Shown in pieces: positions 8,057 through 14,448 of a stretch of DNA of 36,229 bases. The stretch lies in IMG/VR virus record IMGVR_UViG_3300025168_000265, positions 1 to 36,229 of that record; one strand, 5' to 3'. This stretch comes from a virus. Numbering within the stretch: position 1 is the first letter of the stretch; each line of letters opens with the position of its first letter. The notes under the pieces were generated by a model. That model searched no databases. It was given only the letters and a program-made list of their open reading frames with translations, and was not told the DNA's origin. Position numbers and translations under genes: made by a program.

Positions 8057-9889
8057 CTATGATTGAAATGTGTATATCTGTATCAGTTCTTCCTTTCCCT
8101 TTACTTTTATTTCCCCAATACTCTTAGTCTTAAATGTATCTGGTAACAATTCCTGTGTATATGATGACCATATAGTCTTATTGTCTATATGTTCGTGTCG
8201 TCCAGCAGTTGCTTCTAGTCTCGCTGCTAAGTTCACGGCGTCACCTACTACAGAATAGTCAAGTCTTGTTTTTGACCCCATGTTACCCACAATAGCTGTA
8301 CCGGTATTCACACCGGTGCCAACATTGATATCTGGTAGTCCTCGTTCTTTGTAGAGGACTTTTAACTCTTTAACTTTGTCTTCTATTTCTTTACATGACT
8401 TGATAGCCATTTCAGCATGATTGTCCATATCTAACGGCGCACCAAATATACCCATAATACAATCGCCCATAAACTTATCAATCATACCACCGTTGTTCAT
8501 TATGATGTTACTACACTCGTTCAGAAACTCGTTTATTAATTCTACTAAGCCCTCTGGGTCATCTTTATTCTTATAGTATTCACTTATAGGTGTAAAACCT
8601 ACAATGTCCATGAATAGATAACTCATAGTCTTACGTTCTCCTCCTAGTTTTAACTTACTAGGGTCTTTTACTAGTATTGCCACTTGGCGTGGGTCTAAAT
8701 ACTTTTCAAACTGTTTTCTTATCTGCTGTTTGGCACGGAACTCTAAGATGAAACGTAAAAATGTGCTGTGGAATGCTACTATAGTAGCCGTCAGCAAAAT
8801 CCAAGTAATGTCTAGTAATAATAGACTGCTCTCATAGAGCATTGTGAAAGTATTACCAACGCCAATGTATAAACCAATCAATGCCACAGCAATAAGCCAG
8901 TATGGACTAAATCTACACAGCAATACTATAACACATCCTAGGAGAAATGCAACAGCTATTTCATATAGAAAGTCCCAACGTTGTATTGTCTCACCGTCAA
9001 GTATTGTTTGTAATGTGTTTGCACTTATCACATAATCATACTGTTCACCAATTGGCGTTGCAATCACGCCACCTAGTCCCTCTGCCGTCATGGCTAGAAT
9101 AACTGTTGTACCAGCGGCTGCGGAAAAATCATCACTCGCTGCTGATATCGTGTTAAACTTTTTGTTCCAACGTACCCATATTCTCGCATTACTATCAGTA
9201 TTGATTGTAGCATATGCCGGTACTCTCATTGCAATTACACCACTTTGGTCTGCTTTGACTTGATAAGACGGATCACCAACTGCAACTCTAATTGTTTCTA
9301 TCGCCATGTTGGGATAAATATTCTCATCAATCTTCATCAATAGTGGTACTCGTCTTACAACACCGTCTATCTCTGGCGCTGTATTGATAACACCAACACC
9401 GTTTGCACAATTACTTAAAAACAATTCTGGACCAACCATACCCGGCCACTCATACAAAAAGTCTAGTGGATTCCCTATCTTTGCAACACCACGTGGTACT
9501 GCATTACTTGTATTTTTTTGTGTAGTCCCTACTTGAGCAATGACGGTGCCGTATCCTAATGCATTACAAAACTCCTCATCACCACCAAATCTATCTGGCT
9601 CACTAAACAATATAGGCATAACAATAATGCCAGTCTGTGCGTTTCGTAAGTCATAAATGATTTGCGCTAAAGTATCTCTTGGCCAAGGCCATTGTCCGTA
9701 CTTCTCAATCGCTTCTTCGTCTATTGTAATGATTGTAATATCTGATGAGGGTGTGACTTCTTCTTGTTGTAATACAAAGTCAAATGATTTAAGTCTCAAC
9801 AACTCTTTAAAGCCTGGGTCTTGTAACCCAATATATGTCAATAATATGACGGTAATAAATGCTGTTGACCAATGGGTCAAATATCTCAT
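8057..9889 (-). CDS. CHASE2-domain class III adenylate cyclase
   Basis: A 610-residue membrane enzyme. It has an N-terminal span (about 8-23), an extracytoplasmic CHASE2 sensor domain (about 28-300, with the signature 'ITIITIDEEAIEKYGQWPWPR'), three membrane spans (about 305-380) and a C-terminal class III cyclase domain (about 420-600). The catalytic set looks complete: metal aspartates D428 (FMDIVGFT) and D476 (FMGD), adenine-specifying K472 and D544, and transition-state N553 and R557 (VNLAARLE). This predicts ATP to cyclic AMP in response to a periplasmic signal. It is the last large gene of the curli-type island. A late octamer ends 6 bases before the ATG. A whole sensor cyclase on a phage is unusual. 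Confidence 0.9.
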   Translation of the reverse strand: MRYLTHWSTAFITVILLTYIGLQDPGFKELLRLKSFDFVLQQEEVTPSSDITIITIDEEAIEKYGQWPWPRDTLAQIIYDLRNAQTGIIVMPILFSEPDRFGGDEEFCNALGYGTVIAQVGTTQKNTSNAVPRGVAKIGNPLDFLYEWPGMVGPELFLSNCANGVGVINTAPEIDGVVRRVPLLMKIDENIYPNMAIETIRVAVGDPSYQVKADQSGVIAMRVPAYATINTDSNARIWVRWNKKFNTISAASDDFSAAAGTTVILAMTAEGLGGVIATPIGEQYDYVISANTLQTILDGETIQRWDFLYEIAVAFLLGCVIVLLCRFSPYWLIAVALIGLYIGVGNTFTMLYESSLLLLDITWILLTATIVAFHSTFLRFILEFRAKQQIRKQFEKYLDPRQVAILVKDPSKLKLGGERKTMSYLFMDIVGFTPISEYYKNKDDPEGLVELINEFLNECSNIIMNNGGMIDKFMGDCIMGIFGAPLDMDNHAEMAIKSCKEIEDKVKELKVLYKERGLPDINVGTGVNTGTAIVGNMGSKTRLDYSVVGDAVNLAARLEATAGRHEHIDNKTIWSSYTQELLPDTFKTKSIGEIKVKGKEELIQIYTFQS

Positions 9890-9903: not shown

Positions 9904-10257
9904 TTAGTTTTGATTTACGGTCAGCGTACAGAAAGTATGACCACACCACAAAGTATTAGAGTATGACTTGTTATTACCGGTCTGATTAATATAGACAGAT
10001 GAACCATTACTTGTTCTACCATCTACATCTACATTGATTGCATTACTATCACCTATTTGATTTAACGATATGATAAATCCATCCATACTGATTATATCAA
10101 AGTCAATATCATTGTTTTCACCGTCTTGTACTATGTCTAAATTACCACCAGTTGTATCATTATCTATTGTTAAGTCTAAATCGTTAGCCAGTATATCATT
10201 ACTACCACATGAGAATAAACAGTATATTAGAACTATTGCCACTATCCACTTTAACAT
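9904..10257 (-). CDS. Small curlin-repeat secreted protein
   Basis: A 117-residue protein with an N-terminal signal segment (about 1-25), ending either at a lipobox-like 'LFSC' or at a signal peptidase I site 'ILA|ND'. The larger curlin-like protein also begins its mature part with ND after Ala, which favours the second reading. The mature part has three curlin-type repeats with the Q-x-G-x-x-N core: 'IVQDGENNDIDF', 'LNQIGDSNAINV' and 'INQTGNNKSY'. Such repeats build cross-beta amyloid in CsgA/CsgB. It ends with 'LTVNQN', possibly a partial repeat, and has two Cys near the end. It has its own late octamer 5 bases before the ATG. A CsgB-like nucleator role is possible but not shown. Confidence 0.8.
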   Translation of the reverse strand: MLKWIVAIVLIYCLFSCGSNDILANDLDLTIDNDTTGGNLDIVQDGENNDIDFDIISMDGFIISLNQIGDSNAINVDVDGRTSNGSSVYINQTGNNKSYSNTLWCGHTFCTLTVNQN

Positions 10258-10262
10258 ACTAC

Positions 10263-10270
10263 TATTTAGT
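10263..10270 (-). promoter_or_regulatory. Late promoter octamer for the small curlin gene
   Basis: ACTAAATA followed by GTAGT and ATG. The 11 bases TAAATAGTAGT before the ATG are identical to those upstream of gp48. Confidence 0.55.
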
Positions 10271-10703
10271 TACTCCCAACTGTTTTAGAGATAATTGTTT
10301 CTTTCTGCTGTACGTCTTTTTGCTCTTCACCACTCTCATTTTGTACTTGGGTGTTCTCAACGTCTGTGCTATAGGATTCTTTTTTTTCATTTTTCTTCTT
10401 TGTAATCTTTTTCATCTTTTCAATATATCTACGATATACTGCCGCTTCTGCGGTTTTACCCATTTCTTTTGCTCGCTGCTCCATTGCCACAGCAGCTTGT
10501 ATTTTGTGTGCGTGTGATTTACCAGAACCCTCTATTTTCTTTACACTAGCATTAGCATCTTTTACTGTTGCAAATTTGAGACCGTGTATTGTACCTTTTG
10601 GGTTTTCATCTGTGTATAAGTCACTATGTTTCTTACTACCAGCAGGCTGTCCCTTCTTTCTAGGTATTCTAGGTGCCTCTGTAAATTCTTTAAATGACTT
10701 CAT
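10266..10703 (-). CDS. Conserved marine-phage protein with MKSFKEF start
   Basis: A 145-residue basic protein beginning 'MKSFKEFTEAP', an N-terminal pattern I recognise from several marine T4-like phage proteins. A conserved core follows, containing 'GLKFATVKDANASVKKIEGS' and 'HAHKIQAAVAMEQRAKEMGK', then a Lys/Glu-rich tail. No enzyme motif is visible. It overlaps the FecR-domain gene by ATGA, so translation is probably coupled. It is the only gene within the curli-type island that looks like ordinary phage core content, which suggests the island was assembled around it. The function is unknown. Confidence 0.7.
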   Translation of the reverse strand: MKSFKEFTEAPRIPRKKGQPAGSKKHSDLYTDENPKGTIHGLKFATVKDANASVKKIEGSGKSHAHKIQAAVAMEQRAKEMGKTAEAAVYRRYIEKMKKITKKKNEKKESYSTDVENTQVQNESGEEQKDVQQKETIISKTVGSN

Positions 10704-11833
10704 TGTATTTGTATTATTGTTATCTCGTTATCCTGTCCACCAAGTTCAAAATCATACATTTCAAACTCTCCTTGTATTATATTTATATAATATCCATATT
10801 GCTTATCTAGTCTTAGTTCAATATATTGTCCGCCAGCATCCTCTCGTGCCCATAACCATTGTGGGTCTTCATCTAGTATAATCACACCGGTCTCTGGATT
10901 CTTACCTAGGTATATACCATCTACACCTTTTCTCTTATCAAACTCATTTTGCATTTGTAATGCCAGTTCTTTGTTTATTTGTGCTAGAATATCTGCTAAA
11001 AAGTTTTGTTCTAAAAAATCTATATCAAGTCCTGTAATATATAAATCTTCTTCTTCTTCTAAGTAATCAACTTCTAAATCATCAAATTGTAAAAAGTCTA
11101 TGTCTAATGCGTCTGCTACGGCTTTGAGTTTTGCTTCATAGTTTTCTTCTTTTAACTCTGCTGGTTTGGCAACAATCAACATGTTGTTTATCATGTCTAA
11201 TTCTAAATCTAATCTTACAGGTGGTGATGGAGGATTGGCTGGTGTATTTACTTGTGTTGCTTGAAAGGCTTGGTTAAGTATTACTTGACCAGCGGCACTT
11301 TCTACACTTATCTCACCTACAAAACAATTACCACTTACGTCACAACTTGGTAATAATATGATTGTACTGCCACCAAGTTCATCTATTGTCATAGAAAAAT
11401 CTGTACCACGGACACCTATTGTTGCCGTAGGTGTTGTTATCTGTACATCTTGCCGTGAAGTCTTGGCAATTTGACCAGAAGCATATCGTACAGTCCCTAA
11501 TTTAGCAGATAGAGATAACTTTCCCTTCTTGGTGTTTGGGTCATATACAAATTCATCTATAATAAGTTTGCTGTGTTGAGTTACATCAACTCTTGTATCG
11601 TCAATAAACAATATGCCTACTTTGCCGTTGCCGGTCTTTACTGTATCAAATTGTTCTATTGAAAGTTCTTTTTCTAGTGTGGTGTCTTCTTTGTTTCTCT
11701 CTACGACACCGTTACCCTCTAGTTGGTCTACGTTACCTATGCTAGCACTTAGAGCGCTAGCATAGAATAATATTAATATTATTTGTGTCCACTTAGTCAG
11801 TTTGTGATATGTCAATATCATGGTTGTCACCAA
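10700..11833 (-). CDS. Secreted FecR-domain protein
   Basis: A 377-residue protein with a signal peptide (about 5-30) and a FecR domain at about 55-155. The domain core reads 'DTVKTGNGKVGILFIDDTRV', then 'GKLSLSAKLGTVRYASGQIA' and 'VQITTPTATIGVRGTDFSM'. After a Pro-rich linker near 205-215 the C-terminal half is acidic with helical stretches. There is no anti-sigma N-terminal domain and no TonB receptor or FecI sigma factor nearby, so this is the stand-alone periplasmic type rather than the iron-citrate regulator. It lies between the large curlin-like protein (overlap about 40 bases) and the CHASE2 cyclase, a sensory enzyme that could be its partner. An alternative start at 11821 (MILTYHK) leaves a normal signal peptide. 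Confidence 0.8.
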   Translation of the reverse strand: MVTTMILTYHKLTKWTQIILILFYASALSASIGNVDQLEGNGVVERNKEDTTLEKELSIEQFDTVKTGNGKVGILFIDDTRVDVTQHSKLIIDEFVYDPNTKKGKLSLSAKLGTVRYASGQIAKTSRQDVQITTPTATIGVRGTDFSMTIDELGGSTIILLPSCDVSGNCFVGEISVESAAGQVILNQAFQATQVNTPANPPSPPVRLDLELDMINNMLIVAKPAELKEENYEAKLKAVADALDIDFLQFDDLEVDYLEEEEDLYITGLDIDFLEQNFLADILAQINKELALQMQNEFDKRKGVDGIYLGKNPETGVIILDEDPQWLWAREDAGGQYIELRLDKQYGYYINIIQGEFEMYDFELGGQDNEITIIQIQ

Positions 11834-12473
11834 CAGTTGTCAAGTTTATTATGTTATCATAAACACCACTTTGTGTGATATCTACGTCTGCGATTGAACC
11901 AGTGTGACTGTGAACTAAAGTGTGTCCGTTTACATCTCCATCACCATTTATGTCAATTAAATAATTATTTGTGTCACCGTTTACGGATAACGTTAGTATA
12001 GCGGAAGTACCATCAATAGTGGCAGCAACAACGTTACTATCACTTCCTGAGGCACCAGTTATACTTACAGTTGCATTTGAAGCGTCAGCGGATTCTCCAA
12101 TATCAATATCTAAATCATTTGATGAACCTACCCATACTATTGAGGCGGTTGCTGTAGCACATGAACTAACTGTCCCTGCGCTATCACAATTGAAATCTAT
12201 ATCGTTTGAGTTTCCTGTGACGTTAAATGTTCCTGTAAAAGTTGCACCGTTTACGTCAAACTTTAAAACGTTACTGTTACCAACTTGGTCTATATCAATT
12301 GTAGTAGTGGCCCCTATTACACTTGAAGATGTAGTTGAATTACCAACAGTATTGTTTTGTCCGTCTTGGGTAATGTCGAGGTCAAGCGTAGCACCTGATT
12401 GTGTCACATAAATATCATTTGCACTTACCGGTAGGGCAAACAAAATCATTATTGCGATTATTTTAGCGTACAT
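11793..12473 (-). CDS. Large curlin-repeat secreted protein (CsgA-like)
   Basis: A 226-residue protein with a signal peptide (about 1-18, cleavage after 'PVSA'), followed by a low-complexity beta-rich domain full of Asn, Asp, Thr and Gly. Curlin-type repeats with Q-x-G-x-x-N appear as 'ITQDGQNNTVG', 'IDQVGNSNVLKF' and 'ITQSGVYDNIINL'. Degenerate ones lack Gln, such as 'VTGNSNDIDF' and 'WVGSSNDLDI'. Strongly acidic and nearly free of Lys/Arg, it looks like an amyloid or adhesive secreted fibre subunit. It lies 4 bases after csgG with a good ribosome site (GAGGAG), so it is a likely substrate for the CsgG pore. It is longer and more irregular than E. coli CsgA (151). Confidence 0.8.
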   Translation of the reverse strand: MYAKIIAIMILFALPVSANDIYVTQSGATLDLDITQDGQNNTVGNSTTSSSVIGATTTIDIDQVGNSNVLKFDVNGATFTGTFNVTGNSNDIDFNCDSAGTVSSCATATASIVWVGSSNDLDIDIGESADASNATVSITGASGSDSNVVAATIDGTSAILTLSVNGDTNNYLIDINGDGDVNGHTLVHSHTGSIADVDITQSGVYDNIINLTTVGDNHDIDISQTD

Positions 12474-12477
12474 TACT

Positions 12478-13296
12478 TTACTCCTCTATTTTAAATGACC
12501 ATAATTCCTTTGCAATACCTTCATGTATCATATTAAAGATAGCATGTTCTATTGTAGTTCTTATGGCGTAGTTGACTGGCTCGTTTGTTGCGACACCAGT
12601 TTCTAATTCCATGGCTTTTGTACTCATATCTAAGAACCTGAATACATCTCCACCACTGGAATAACTCGCTATAGTTTTTGTTGCTGATACTGTCATCAGG
12701 ATTTCTCCTGTTTGTACTGCAACTAATCTTAGCGAAACTGTTACTTGGTCTGTACGATATTGTTCACTAATGCCAATACCAAAATATCTTGCACCAACAC
12801 CACCAGATGTAATGTTAGTATCATATCCTACAATCCCACCCTCTACTAAAAGTCCTGCAAACTTTAGAGGTTTTAAAACGTTCTTTGTATCACTCTCTCC
12901 ATCATATAGTTCTCTTGTACTTCTTATCAATTGTCTTTCTTTTATTAATGAATCTAAACCTTGTCTTTCTAATACTACAAACCAAGGGTCATTACCACCA
13001 ACTGCTTTAAGACCATTGATGACCCATGCCTCAGGTCCTTGTGTTACAGCCGTAGATAACTGACTAAATCTTTCATTTGGTTTTCTCTGTCCTGTTCTAT
13101 CAGGAAAGTTATACACAGCTATTGTAATTTGTGCTTGTCCAAGTTCTGGTATATTATGTAATCTTTTAATTGTATCTGTTTCTAATGTGTATGGTGTCTC
13201 ACCATAGAATACATCCTCAGACTTTGTACTGGCACAACCAGAAGCAAAACATAAGACCGCTAACACCGCAGCTACGTGTGGAAAAGTTATACTCAT
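12478..13296 (-). CDS. csgG: Curli secretion pore CsgG
   Basis: A 272-residue outer-membrane lipoprotein. The signal peptide ends in a lipobox 'ASGC'. The CsgG fold is clear: 'ITIAVYNFPDRTGQRKPNER' matches E. coli 'IFVSVYNIQDETGQFKPYP', 'VVLERQGLDSLIKERQLIRS' matches 'PLERQGLQNLLNERKIIRA', and 'SGGVGARYFGIG' is identical. CsgG forms a nonameric channel that exports curli subunits. I start it at the ATG at 13296, one base after the csgF stop. A TTG at 13317 would place seven extra residues before the signal peptide. The match is close over the whole length, so function is probably kept. Confidence 0.93.
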   Translation of the reverse strand: MSITFPHVAAVLAVLCFASGCASTKSEDVFYGETPYTLETDTIKRLHNIPELGQAQITIAVYNFPDRTGQRKPNERFSQLSTAVTQGPEAWVINGLKAVGGNDPWFVVLERQGLDSLIKERQLIRSTRELYDGESDTKNVLKPLKFAGLLVEGGIVGYDTNITSGGVGARYFGIGISEQYRTDQVTVSLRLVAVQTGEILMTVSATKTIASYSSGGDVFRFLDMSTKAMELETGVATNEPVNYAIRTTIEHAIFNMIHEGIAKELWSFKIEE

Positions 13297-13297
13297 C

Positions 13298-13774
13298 TTA
13301 AAATACAAAATCGCCAACTGGCACGGACATAGTTGTTACTGAGCCATCTGGTGATGTAATTGTTAATGTGATTGTTCCTGTTGTTGCATCTTTGACCCAA
13401 TAGATAGTTGAGCCTTCAACGTCTGCTGTGCCGCTTGTTGGACATTCACCTGAACAGGATTCACCAAACATATTATCTACTAATTGTTTTGATAGATTGG
13501 CATATATCCTACTCTCAACGTTCTTTATAAATTTGTTGATTGTGGTATTGTTGGCGTCACGTTCAGCTGCAGCTGCCGCTGACTTAGCGTCATCAGTAAT
13601 ATTCTTCTCTCTACTGTAACGTAATTGTTCTAAGGAGAGAACATGTGTGCTATACCCATTCCCTGAAAAAGATGGGTTTTTAAAACTGTGTGATAATTCG
13701 CTTGATGTACTAGGTAAACTCAAAGTACATAATATAAGACTGCTCCCTAGCACTTTTAAAAGTGCCTTGTTCAT
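13298..13774 (-). CDS. csgF: Curli assembly factor CsgF
   Basis: A 158-residue protein with a signal peptide (about 1-25). The mature N-terminus 'SHSFKNPSFSGNGYSTHVL' matches the CsgG-binding N-terminus of E. coli CsgF ('[20 protein letters not shown]'). The C-terminus 'TITLTITSPDGSVTTMSVPV' matches '[20 protein letters not shown]'. CsgF lines the outer constriction of the CsgG pore and couples export to fibre nucleation. An Ala-rich coil (about 60-75) and two Cys in a 'CSGEC' motif are additions. A consensus TATAAATA ends 5 bases before the ATG, so this is probably the head of the island's late transcript. Confidence 0.9.
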   Translation of the reverse strand: MNKALLKVLGSSLILCTLSLPSTSSELSHSFKNPSFSGNGYSTHVLSLEQLRYSREKNITDDAKSAAAAAERDANNTTINKFIKNVESRIYANLSKQLVDNMFGESCSGECPTSGTADVEGSTIYWVKDATTGTITLTITSPDGSVTTMSVPVGDFVF

Positions 13775-13779
13775 GCTTA

Positions 13780-13787
13780 TATTTATA
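13780..13787 (-). promoter_or_regulatory. Consensus late promoter for the curli-type island
   Basis: A perfect T4-type TATAAATA, then TAAGC and the csgF ATG. There is no Shine-Dalgarno between octamer and start. It overlaps the stop of the 27-residue microprotein. Confidence 0.65.
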
Positions 13788-13866
13788 ATAGGAGGTAGTC
13801 TAATATTGCAACGGTAGTAAAAGTTAATAGTATTACTGCGCCAACTATTATACCGTTACTTTTCAT
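13783..13866 (-). CDS. 27-residue single-span microprotein
   Basis: A short frame beginning inside the last codons of the preceding gene (ATG at 13866, GAAGGTG just upstream) and encoding one hydrophobic segment ('IIVGAVILLTFTTVAILDYL') with a short charged start. It fits the many single-span microproteins elsewhere in the window, but its ribosome site is only moderate. Confidence 0.4.
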   Translation of the reverse strand: MKSNGIIVGAVILLTFTTVAILDYLLL

Positions 13867-14149
13867 CACCTTCAAGTAGTTTTTCTGCATTTCCAGACTT
13901 TTTTGTGCCGTCTCTTTGTTCATTTTCCCTCATTTCTAGTACGGTATTCAGTTTTGACCGTAATCTTATTAAGTCATTATCTAGCATTCTAATTCTATCA
14001 ATTAATGCTATAGTAGTGATTTGTGCTTTGTCTAATTTTTCTATGATATTACCGGTGATATAATTGTAAATAAAATAGATGAAATACCCCATAGCAATTG
14101 CTGCTACTGTGGCAAAACCATACTGGTTTAATATCTCTACAATATCCAT
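13856..14149 (-). CDS. Membrane/coiled-coil protein, tandem paralogue 2
   Basis: A 97-residue protein. One N-terminal membrane span (about 9-32, 'GFATVAAIAMGYFIYFIYNY') is followed by a helical segment 'RIRMLDNDLIRLRSKLN' and a charged tail. It is clearly paralogous to the gene upstream: 'YFIYFIYNYI' against 'VFIYIILKYI', and 'LIDRIRMLDNDLIRL' against 'ALDNRIKTMNHDMVKL'. Start and upstream stop share TAATG, so translation is coupled. The layout of one span plus a coil would fit a holin partner, a spanin-like or a superinfection protein, but no family is recognised. Confidence 0.65.
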   Translation of the reverse strand: MDIVEILNQYGFATVAAIAMGYFIYFIYNYITGNIIEKLDKAQITTIALIDRIRMLDNDLIRLRSKLNTVLEMRENEQRDGTKKSGNAEKLLEGDEK

Positions 14150-14430
14150 TAGTCTTTTCTGGCGTCTTCTTTACCATCTGCTCTGGATATTCTATCAAGG
14201 TCAGGTCGTAAGTTCAAAGCGCTACTTATTAATATATCAAGTTTTACCATATCGTGGTTCATTGTTTTAATTCTGTTGTCTAAAGCGGAGATTAACATAG
14301 TAATTGTTTGTACTTGACCTACAACACCGGATAGTATATACTTTAAAATAATGTATATGAATACCCCCATCACCATTGCAGCTGCAACTGGCAATCCAAA
14401 ATCAACTAAAATTGTAAAAAATAAATCCAT
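14149..14430 (-). CDS. Membrane/coiled-coil protein, tandem paralogue 1
   Basis: A 93-residue protein with a membrane span (about 4-33) and a coiled helical part ('ALDNRIKTMNHDMVKLDILI'), ending in a charged tail. It has the same architecture as the gene just downstream, so the pair is a tandem duplication. A consensus late octamer TATAAATA (14441-14448) lies 10 bases before the ATG, so expression is probably late. The function is unknown; a lysis or envelope role is a guess from topology and timing. Confidence 0.65.
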   Translation of the reverse strand: MDLFFTILVDFGLPVAAAMVMGVFIYIILKYILSGVVGQVQTITMLISALDNRIKTMNHDMVKLDILISSALNLRPDLDRISRADGKEDARKD

Positions 14431-14440
14431 AGTAATGGAC

Positions 14441-14448
14441 TATTTATA
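14441..14448 (-). promoter_or_regulatory. Late promoter octamer for the tandem membrane proteins
   Basis: Perfect TATAAATA on the minus strand, ending 10 bases before the ATG at 14430. It overlaps the stop codon of the oxygenase gene. Confidence 0.6.

Follow-up and report, generated by a model that had tools for sequence, protein, structure and literature searches.

A CHASE2 nucleotide cyclase closing a phage curli-type operon, and the co-inheritance of its sensor with fibre export systems

We find that the CHASE2 sensors of marine phage nucleotide cyclases are inherited as one unit with the export system encoded beside them, and that the catalytic domains attached to these sensors are exchanged. 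The gene at the centre of the analysis lies in a viral DNA sequence of 36,229 nucleotides (IMG/VR record IMGVR_UViG_3300025168_000265, hereafter the window), where it is, as the earlier note had proposed, the last gene of a curli-type island, with csgF, csgG, a FecR-domain gene and two curlin-repeat ORFs directly upstream on the same strand. Our preferred reading, to which we assign a probability of roughly 0.55, is that the cyclase closes a phage late operon for the export of curlin-like fibres, reads the state of export or assembly, probably through the FecR-domain protein, and sets cAMP for a host receptor.

The cyclase is already known as a phage gene and the window copy is a further example of a known phage cluster. 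The cultured pelagiphage HTVC008M carries a full-length homologue (72% identical, annotated 'adenylate/guanylyl cyclase'), and Wittmers et al. 2022 (PMC9599517) describe pelagiphage curli clusters that contain both an adenylate cyclase and FecR and have been transferred between virus families. The suggestion that whole sensory cyclases are rare on phages is true of sequenced isolates, of which 6 in 50,697 records have full-length matches, but not of marine viral contigs, where a single cyclase query matched 356 stretches. Two Acinetobacter 'phage' matches (H7 and H8) were set aside since they are located among bacterial housekeeping genes. The window itself is a virus record with tail and baseplate genes in the order found in HTVC008M, which excludes host contamination or a prophage origin.

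The cyclase and its active site

The cyclase is encoded on the minus strand from 9889 to 8057 by 610 uninterrupted codons, with many stops on the plus strand across the same interval, so the reported full-length ORF is intact. Both of its domains are recognized by Pfam well over the cut-off, CHASE2 (PF05226) at residues 15-320 (E 3.6e-40) and Guanylate_cyc at residues 421-604 (E 7.3e-18). The first of these, a periplasmic sensor with an N-terminal membrane helix, occupies 8930-9847 of the minus strand, and the second, the catalytic domain, 8078-8629. An AlphaFold2 model built with 48 relatives as input has a mean pLDDT of 89.7 and places helices at residues 6-23, 307-327, 330-355 and 361-394 around the periplasmic domain. 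Model and Pfam thus agree on the four membrane spans and complete periplasmic sensor previously proposed, with the one N-terminal and three C-terminal membrane helices of the CHASE2 family. In a Foldseek comparison the modelled catalytic part superposes on CyaB and CyaC with an rmsd of 1.5-2.0 Å over about 200 columns, and Cya2 is a further structural match.

Alignment with the characterized class III cyclases CyaB (P. aeruginosa), CyaC (Spirulina) and Cya2 (Synechocystis) places five of the six residues named in the earlier note at catalytic positions: the metal-binding aspartates D428 and D476, K472, the transition-state asparagine N553 and R557. The sixth, D544, does not survive this comparison. 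The substrate-selecting column falls on S546, and in the bacterial set of 77 loci, which keep the other catalytic residues with two exceptions, 34 have N, T, Q or A in place of D544. The substrate-selecting residue is T in both CyaB and CyaC and G in Cya2, and in the base-recognizing column K472 is matched by K in both of these adenylate cyclases, whereas Cya2, a guanylate cyclase, has E there. K/T-type substrate-selecting pairs define class IIIb, and the K472/S546 pair (Lys plus Thr/Ser, not Asp) gives the window enzyme a IIIb-like site.

These residues are highly conserved across the viral cyclases compared, about 230 over three sets with a few contigs recurring between sets. In the two sets that together hold 162 sequences, D428, K472 and D476 are invariant, R557 is kept in every cyclase that includes its column, and S546 and N553 are altered only in that of the Melnitz methylophages (to D and S respectively); conservation in the third set (about 77 cyclases) agrees. 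From the K472 and S546 columns, together with this conservation, ATP is the likely substrate and cAMP the likely product, and the window protein is likely to be an active class III enzyme. The dN/dS ratios are about 0.13-0.22 for the CHASE2 half and about 0.03-0.04 for the catalytic half where dS is unsaturated, indicating that the gene is maintained under purifying selection; with the kept catalytic residues, they rule out decay.

The Melnitz cyclase (L083, 10001-12052) has a different catalytic domain. Because it lacks the transition-state Asn and has D as its substrate residue, its activity may be altered. This homologue is 45% identical to the window cyclase and its gene order is as in the window.

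The operon and its promoter

The genes upstream of the cyclase, all on the minus strand, are those of a pelagiphage type VIII secretion (T8SS)/curli cluster in a T4-like marine phage, with csgF, csgG, a curlin-repeat gene and FecR in that order. CsgF (13298-13774; Pfam 4.3e-12) is followed by the outer-membrane export channel CsgG (12478-13317; Pfam 1e-52) and by a curlin-repeat protein of 226 residues (11793-12473) with a weak NCBIfam match to CsgB (1.1e-3). Next come an exported FecR-domain protein of 377 residues (10700-11833; Pfam 3.5e-9), our proposed periplasmic sensor partner, and a 145-residue phage ORF of unknown function (10266-10703; phrog_727, 6.4e-7) that is present in some relatives only. 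A second, CsgA-like curlin-repeat protein of 117 residues (9904-10257), with a weak NCBIfam CsgA match (1.1e-4) and the same place in relatives, immediately precedes the cyclase. In a scan of the window ORFs near the cluster we recognized neither the CsgD regulator nor the CsgE gate, and in this respect the cluster departs from the canonical csgBAC-DEFG layout; phage curli clusters lacking the CsgE gate, and likewise the absence of CsgD and CsgE, have been reported (PMC9599517).

Among phage loci of the window lineage with enough flanking sequence this association is nearly absolute, with FecR in all of 34 and curlin in all of 29; csgG occurs in 27/28 and csgF in 24/25, the single csgG/csgF absence being a contig (L052) that starts inside the cluster. 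The expectation that homologues always adjoin csgFG therefore holds for this lineage but not for all, since a sister lineage adjoins type I secretion genes in phages without csgG.

Upstream of csgF lie two small predicted single-span membrane proteins, which we term H97 (97 residues, 13856-14149) and H93 (93 residues, 14149-14430). These are paralogues in tandem (13856-14430, minus strand) that share one PHROG (phrog_18771) and accompany the cyclase in two of the three lineages described below; of 24 phage loci with sufficient flanking sequence, 21 have H97. One or two histidine kinases have been reported to precede phage curli clusters (PMC9599517). Searches of Pfam, PHROGs and NCBIfam detected no HisKA or HATPase domain in these two ORFs, and a family search with the pair returned nothing even at an E-value of 10.

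The earlier note placed the island under a late-type promoter, and this is supported for its start. Of 29 phage loci compared, 24 have the octamer TATAAATA (in the window at 13780-13787, minus strand) directly ahead of csgF, and in 19 of those 24 the gap to the ATG is 5 nt, as in the window. Over the window as a whole the exact octamer is about as frequent as expected (7 copies against 6.8), but because its place ahead of csgF is fixed, a late promoter there is credible. On the model of T4 late promoters, the csgF transcript may start at the ATG itself and so be leaderless, given the 5-nt spacing in most relatives. A further copy of TATAAATA precedes H93 (14441-14448, minus strand) and is found within 100 nt upstream of that gene in 15 of 25 relatives. 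A stand-alone promoter for the cyclase can be rejected, the octamer occurring before this gene in only 2 of 74 relatives.

Under our preferred reading, the last gene of this operon would encode a membrane-bound class III cyclase, most likely converting ATP to cAMP, whose periplasmic CHASE2 domain most likely reads the export or assembly state of the phage-encoded fibre. The neighbouring FecR-domain protein would be the probable go-between in the periplasm, in direct contact with CHASE2, and the four-helix membrane segment and signalling helix would relay the state to the cyclase dimer. Such a signal might turn the enzyme either on or off. The level of cAMP would then change late in infection and would act through a host receptor for cyclic nucleotides (cNMP). 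No phage-encoded cNMP-binding domain was found in HTVC008M, Melnitz or a 146-kb relative, so that the effector would have to be a host protein. Such receptors are present in 88 of 115 genomes of a class-wide sample taken with SAR11 in view, a figure that describes the class and not SAR11 itself.

Sensor lineages and exchange of catalytic domains

By their sensors, phage CHASE2 cyclases form at least three lineages, of which two go with csgF/csgG and FecR and one with type I secretion and a FecR-domain adhesin. S1 is the window type with csgFG. S2, the type I lineage, was found by a scan with the cyclase of L089 (a contig in a Rickettsiales MAG bin with phage-type neighbours), and S3, with csgFG of another subtype, by a scan with the third sensor type. 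L089 is one of five contigs (L085-L089), binned as Flavobacteriaceae, Pirellulales and Rickettsiales MAGs, that supply the nearest 'bacterial' matches to the cyclase and that themselves appear to be phage contigs.

In S2 the genes ahead of the cyclase encode TolC, the permease portion of a type I ABC transporter, HlyD and an adhesin-like protein of about 1,300 residues with a FecR domain. Among loci with enough flank, HlyD is present in 18/18, the ABC permease in 13/13, TolC in 9/9 and the FecR adhesin in 7/7, and csgG is absent from three long contigs of this type. One S2 contig of 148 kb carries a phage DNA polymerase, clamp loader, ribonucleotide reductase and virion structural protein; searches of the type I phage contigs for gp23 and terminase were negative. 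The end (L268) of this contig (G123), which also has the type I/CHASE2 module, carries ORFs that resemble GroEL and DnaK by their sequence starts. The phage ABC component (L089, 8095-8841, and relatives) is a transmembrane part only, of about 250 residues and without an ATPase domain, in contrast to the full ABC proteins of bacterial operons. The S3 loci have both csgFG and FecR in 29/29, with the cluster in either orientation.

CHASE2 identity across lineages does not exceed 38%, whereas that of the catalytic domains reaches 95–98%, a contrast unaffected by the fact that identities within lineages are partly shaped by how the sets were retrieved. In the S1 and S2 sets the nearest CHASE2 relative carries the same export system in 96 of 96 cases, and the nearest catalytic-domain relative in 86 of 97. 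Sliding identity breaks where the membrane segment ends, at about residues 361–391. The exchange is seen most directly where two csgFG-type loci (L251 and L252) match a type I locus (L200) over 4,045 bp at 95% DNA identity from the catalytic domain downstream, with no match upstream. The trees of the CHASE2 and catalytic halves disagree accordingly, the catalytic tree being a quick one. Since CHASE2 diverges between lineages while catalytic domains stay nearly identical, and the DNA match starts at the catalytic domain, we conclude that sensor and export system travel together. Recombination is also seen within S1, one relative (L009) being closest in CHASE2 and far in the catalytic half, and another (L047) the reverse. 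Finally, one 18-kb phage contig (L177/L271, IMGVR_UViG_3300007754_000426) carries two complete CHASE2 cyclases, one of type S2 beside type I genes and one of type S3 beside csgFG and FecR.

These patterns bear on three alternatives to our preferred reading. The cyclase could instead tune host physiology (carbon use, stress or lysis timing) without sensing fibres, having been carried along by transfer of the whole block. This would fit the global regulatory role of cAMP, the movement of the phage T8SS block between virus families as a unit (PMC9599517) and the position of the cyclase at the end of the operon. Block transfer alone, however, predicts neither that CHASE2 should stay with its export system as catalytic domains are exchanged between systems, nor that two cyclases should share a contig with each beside its own system, and we consider this account unlikely, if the strongest of the three. 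Less probable still is that CHASE2 reads a general envelope or environmental signal, such as a ligand entering through an ungated CsgG pore, with cAMP informing the phage of cell state or coinfection. The lack of a CsgE gate in phage clusters (PMC9599517) agrees with this, as do the unknown ligands of CHASE2 (PMC5192318) and the outer-membrane barrel that feeds the CHASE2 cyclases of S. meliloti (PMC13001267), but such a signal would not require a separate CHASE2 lineage for each export system.

The third alternative, and in our judgement the least probable, makes H93 and H97, possibly holin-like, the partners of the cyclase, through which cAMP would be coupled to lysis or the state of the membrane. 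The 6 phage records (of 50,697) that carry the full-length cyclase are exactly those in which H93 is found, and of 66 type I loci 59 have H93 beside the cyclase. Against this, the pair is absent from the L195-L200 group, from L177 and from the S3 loci examined, has no family match and varies in position relative to the cyclase. As constant neighbours in two lineages, these proteins could nevertheless be the real partner, and this is one counter-point to the export-state reading; another is that co-inheritance could reflect physical linkage and recombination hotspots in the conserved catalytic region, not matched function.

A broader form of the export-state reading, which we advance tentatively and at slightly less than even odds, is that marine phages carry a modular sensor in which CHASE2 is matched to a FecR-tagged fibre export system, either curli type VIII or type I adhesin, and coupled to a cyclase output that can be exchanged. 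Sensor and secretion system would then be swapped as a cassette, by recombination within the cyclase gene, between otherwise near-identical phages. Were this so, FecR or the exported fibre would be the long-sought input of CHASE2. Phage populations provide natural CHASE2 domain swaps, in which the sensor changes with the export system and the enzyme half stays; these suggest that the input is the export machinery or its cargo, and they supply directly testable chimeras. Abundant marine phages may, in addition, use late cyclic-nucleotide signalling to manage the surface fibres they install on their hosts. The S2 loci extend phage-borne secretion from curli to type I systems. Neither the co-inheritance rule nor the type I counterpart was found in the open-access papers searched, which is limited evidence of novelty.

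Relation to known systems

Among 75 bacterial loci with a CHASE2 cyclase, 26 have a FecR ORF within 3.5 kb, and every FecR ORF detected lies that close in a scan of up to 10 kb per side; none was found in the other 49, in a search that was not exhaustive and in which some flanks were short. No csgG adjoins the cyclase in any of the 75. In two of these loci (L095 and L103) a FecR adhesin, a type I ABC transporter, HlyD and a CHASE2 cyclase are contiguous, and in a third (L123) a FecR/RTX adhesin adjoins the cyclase. These operons resemble the window in bringing a FecR-domain protein and a CHASE2 cyclase together, but their cyclases are only about 30% identical to that of the window, the ABC protein is complete with its ATPase, and export is of type I, not type VIII.

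The closest known counterpart is the T8SS cluster of HTVC008M and HTVC023P-type phages (PMC9599517; Zaragoza-Solas et al. 2020, PMC7029224), which shares with the window the order csgF, csgG, curlin, FecR-type protein, one or more ORFs and cyclase, followed by convergent tail genes. These two papers name 'adenylate cyclase' only, and we did not find in them the CHASE2 domain, the K/S active site, the type I alternative, the exchange between sensor and catalytic domain or the conserved csgF promoter.

The adenylate/guanylate cyclases CyaD1, CyaD2 and CyaK of Sinorhizobium meliloti (PMC13001267, PMC5498481) likewise join a CHASE2 sensor to a class III cyclase with cAMP output, and raise cAMP through the outer-membrane beta-barrel NsrA (PMC13001267). 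They differ from the window gene in being chromosomal, in serving symbiosis signalling via the Clr receptor and, apparently, in lying outside secretion operons. In the BiofilmReg operon of Burkholderia contaminans (PMC5192318) a periplasmic FecR-domain protein adjoins a CHASE2 sensor, as in the window, and the operon is linked to biofilm; there, however, CHASE2 is fused to a histidine kinase and not to a cyclase. At the level of the enzyme, the class IIIb cyclases CyaB (3r5g) and CyaC (1wc1) share the catalytic fold of the window protein (TM-score 0.87-0.90, target-normalised) and K at the base-recognizing site, and are distinguished from it by T instead of S at the substrate-selecting position and by their other sensor domains.
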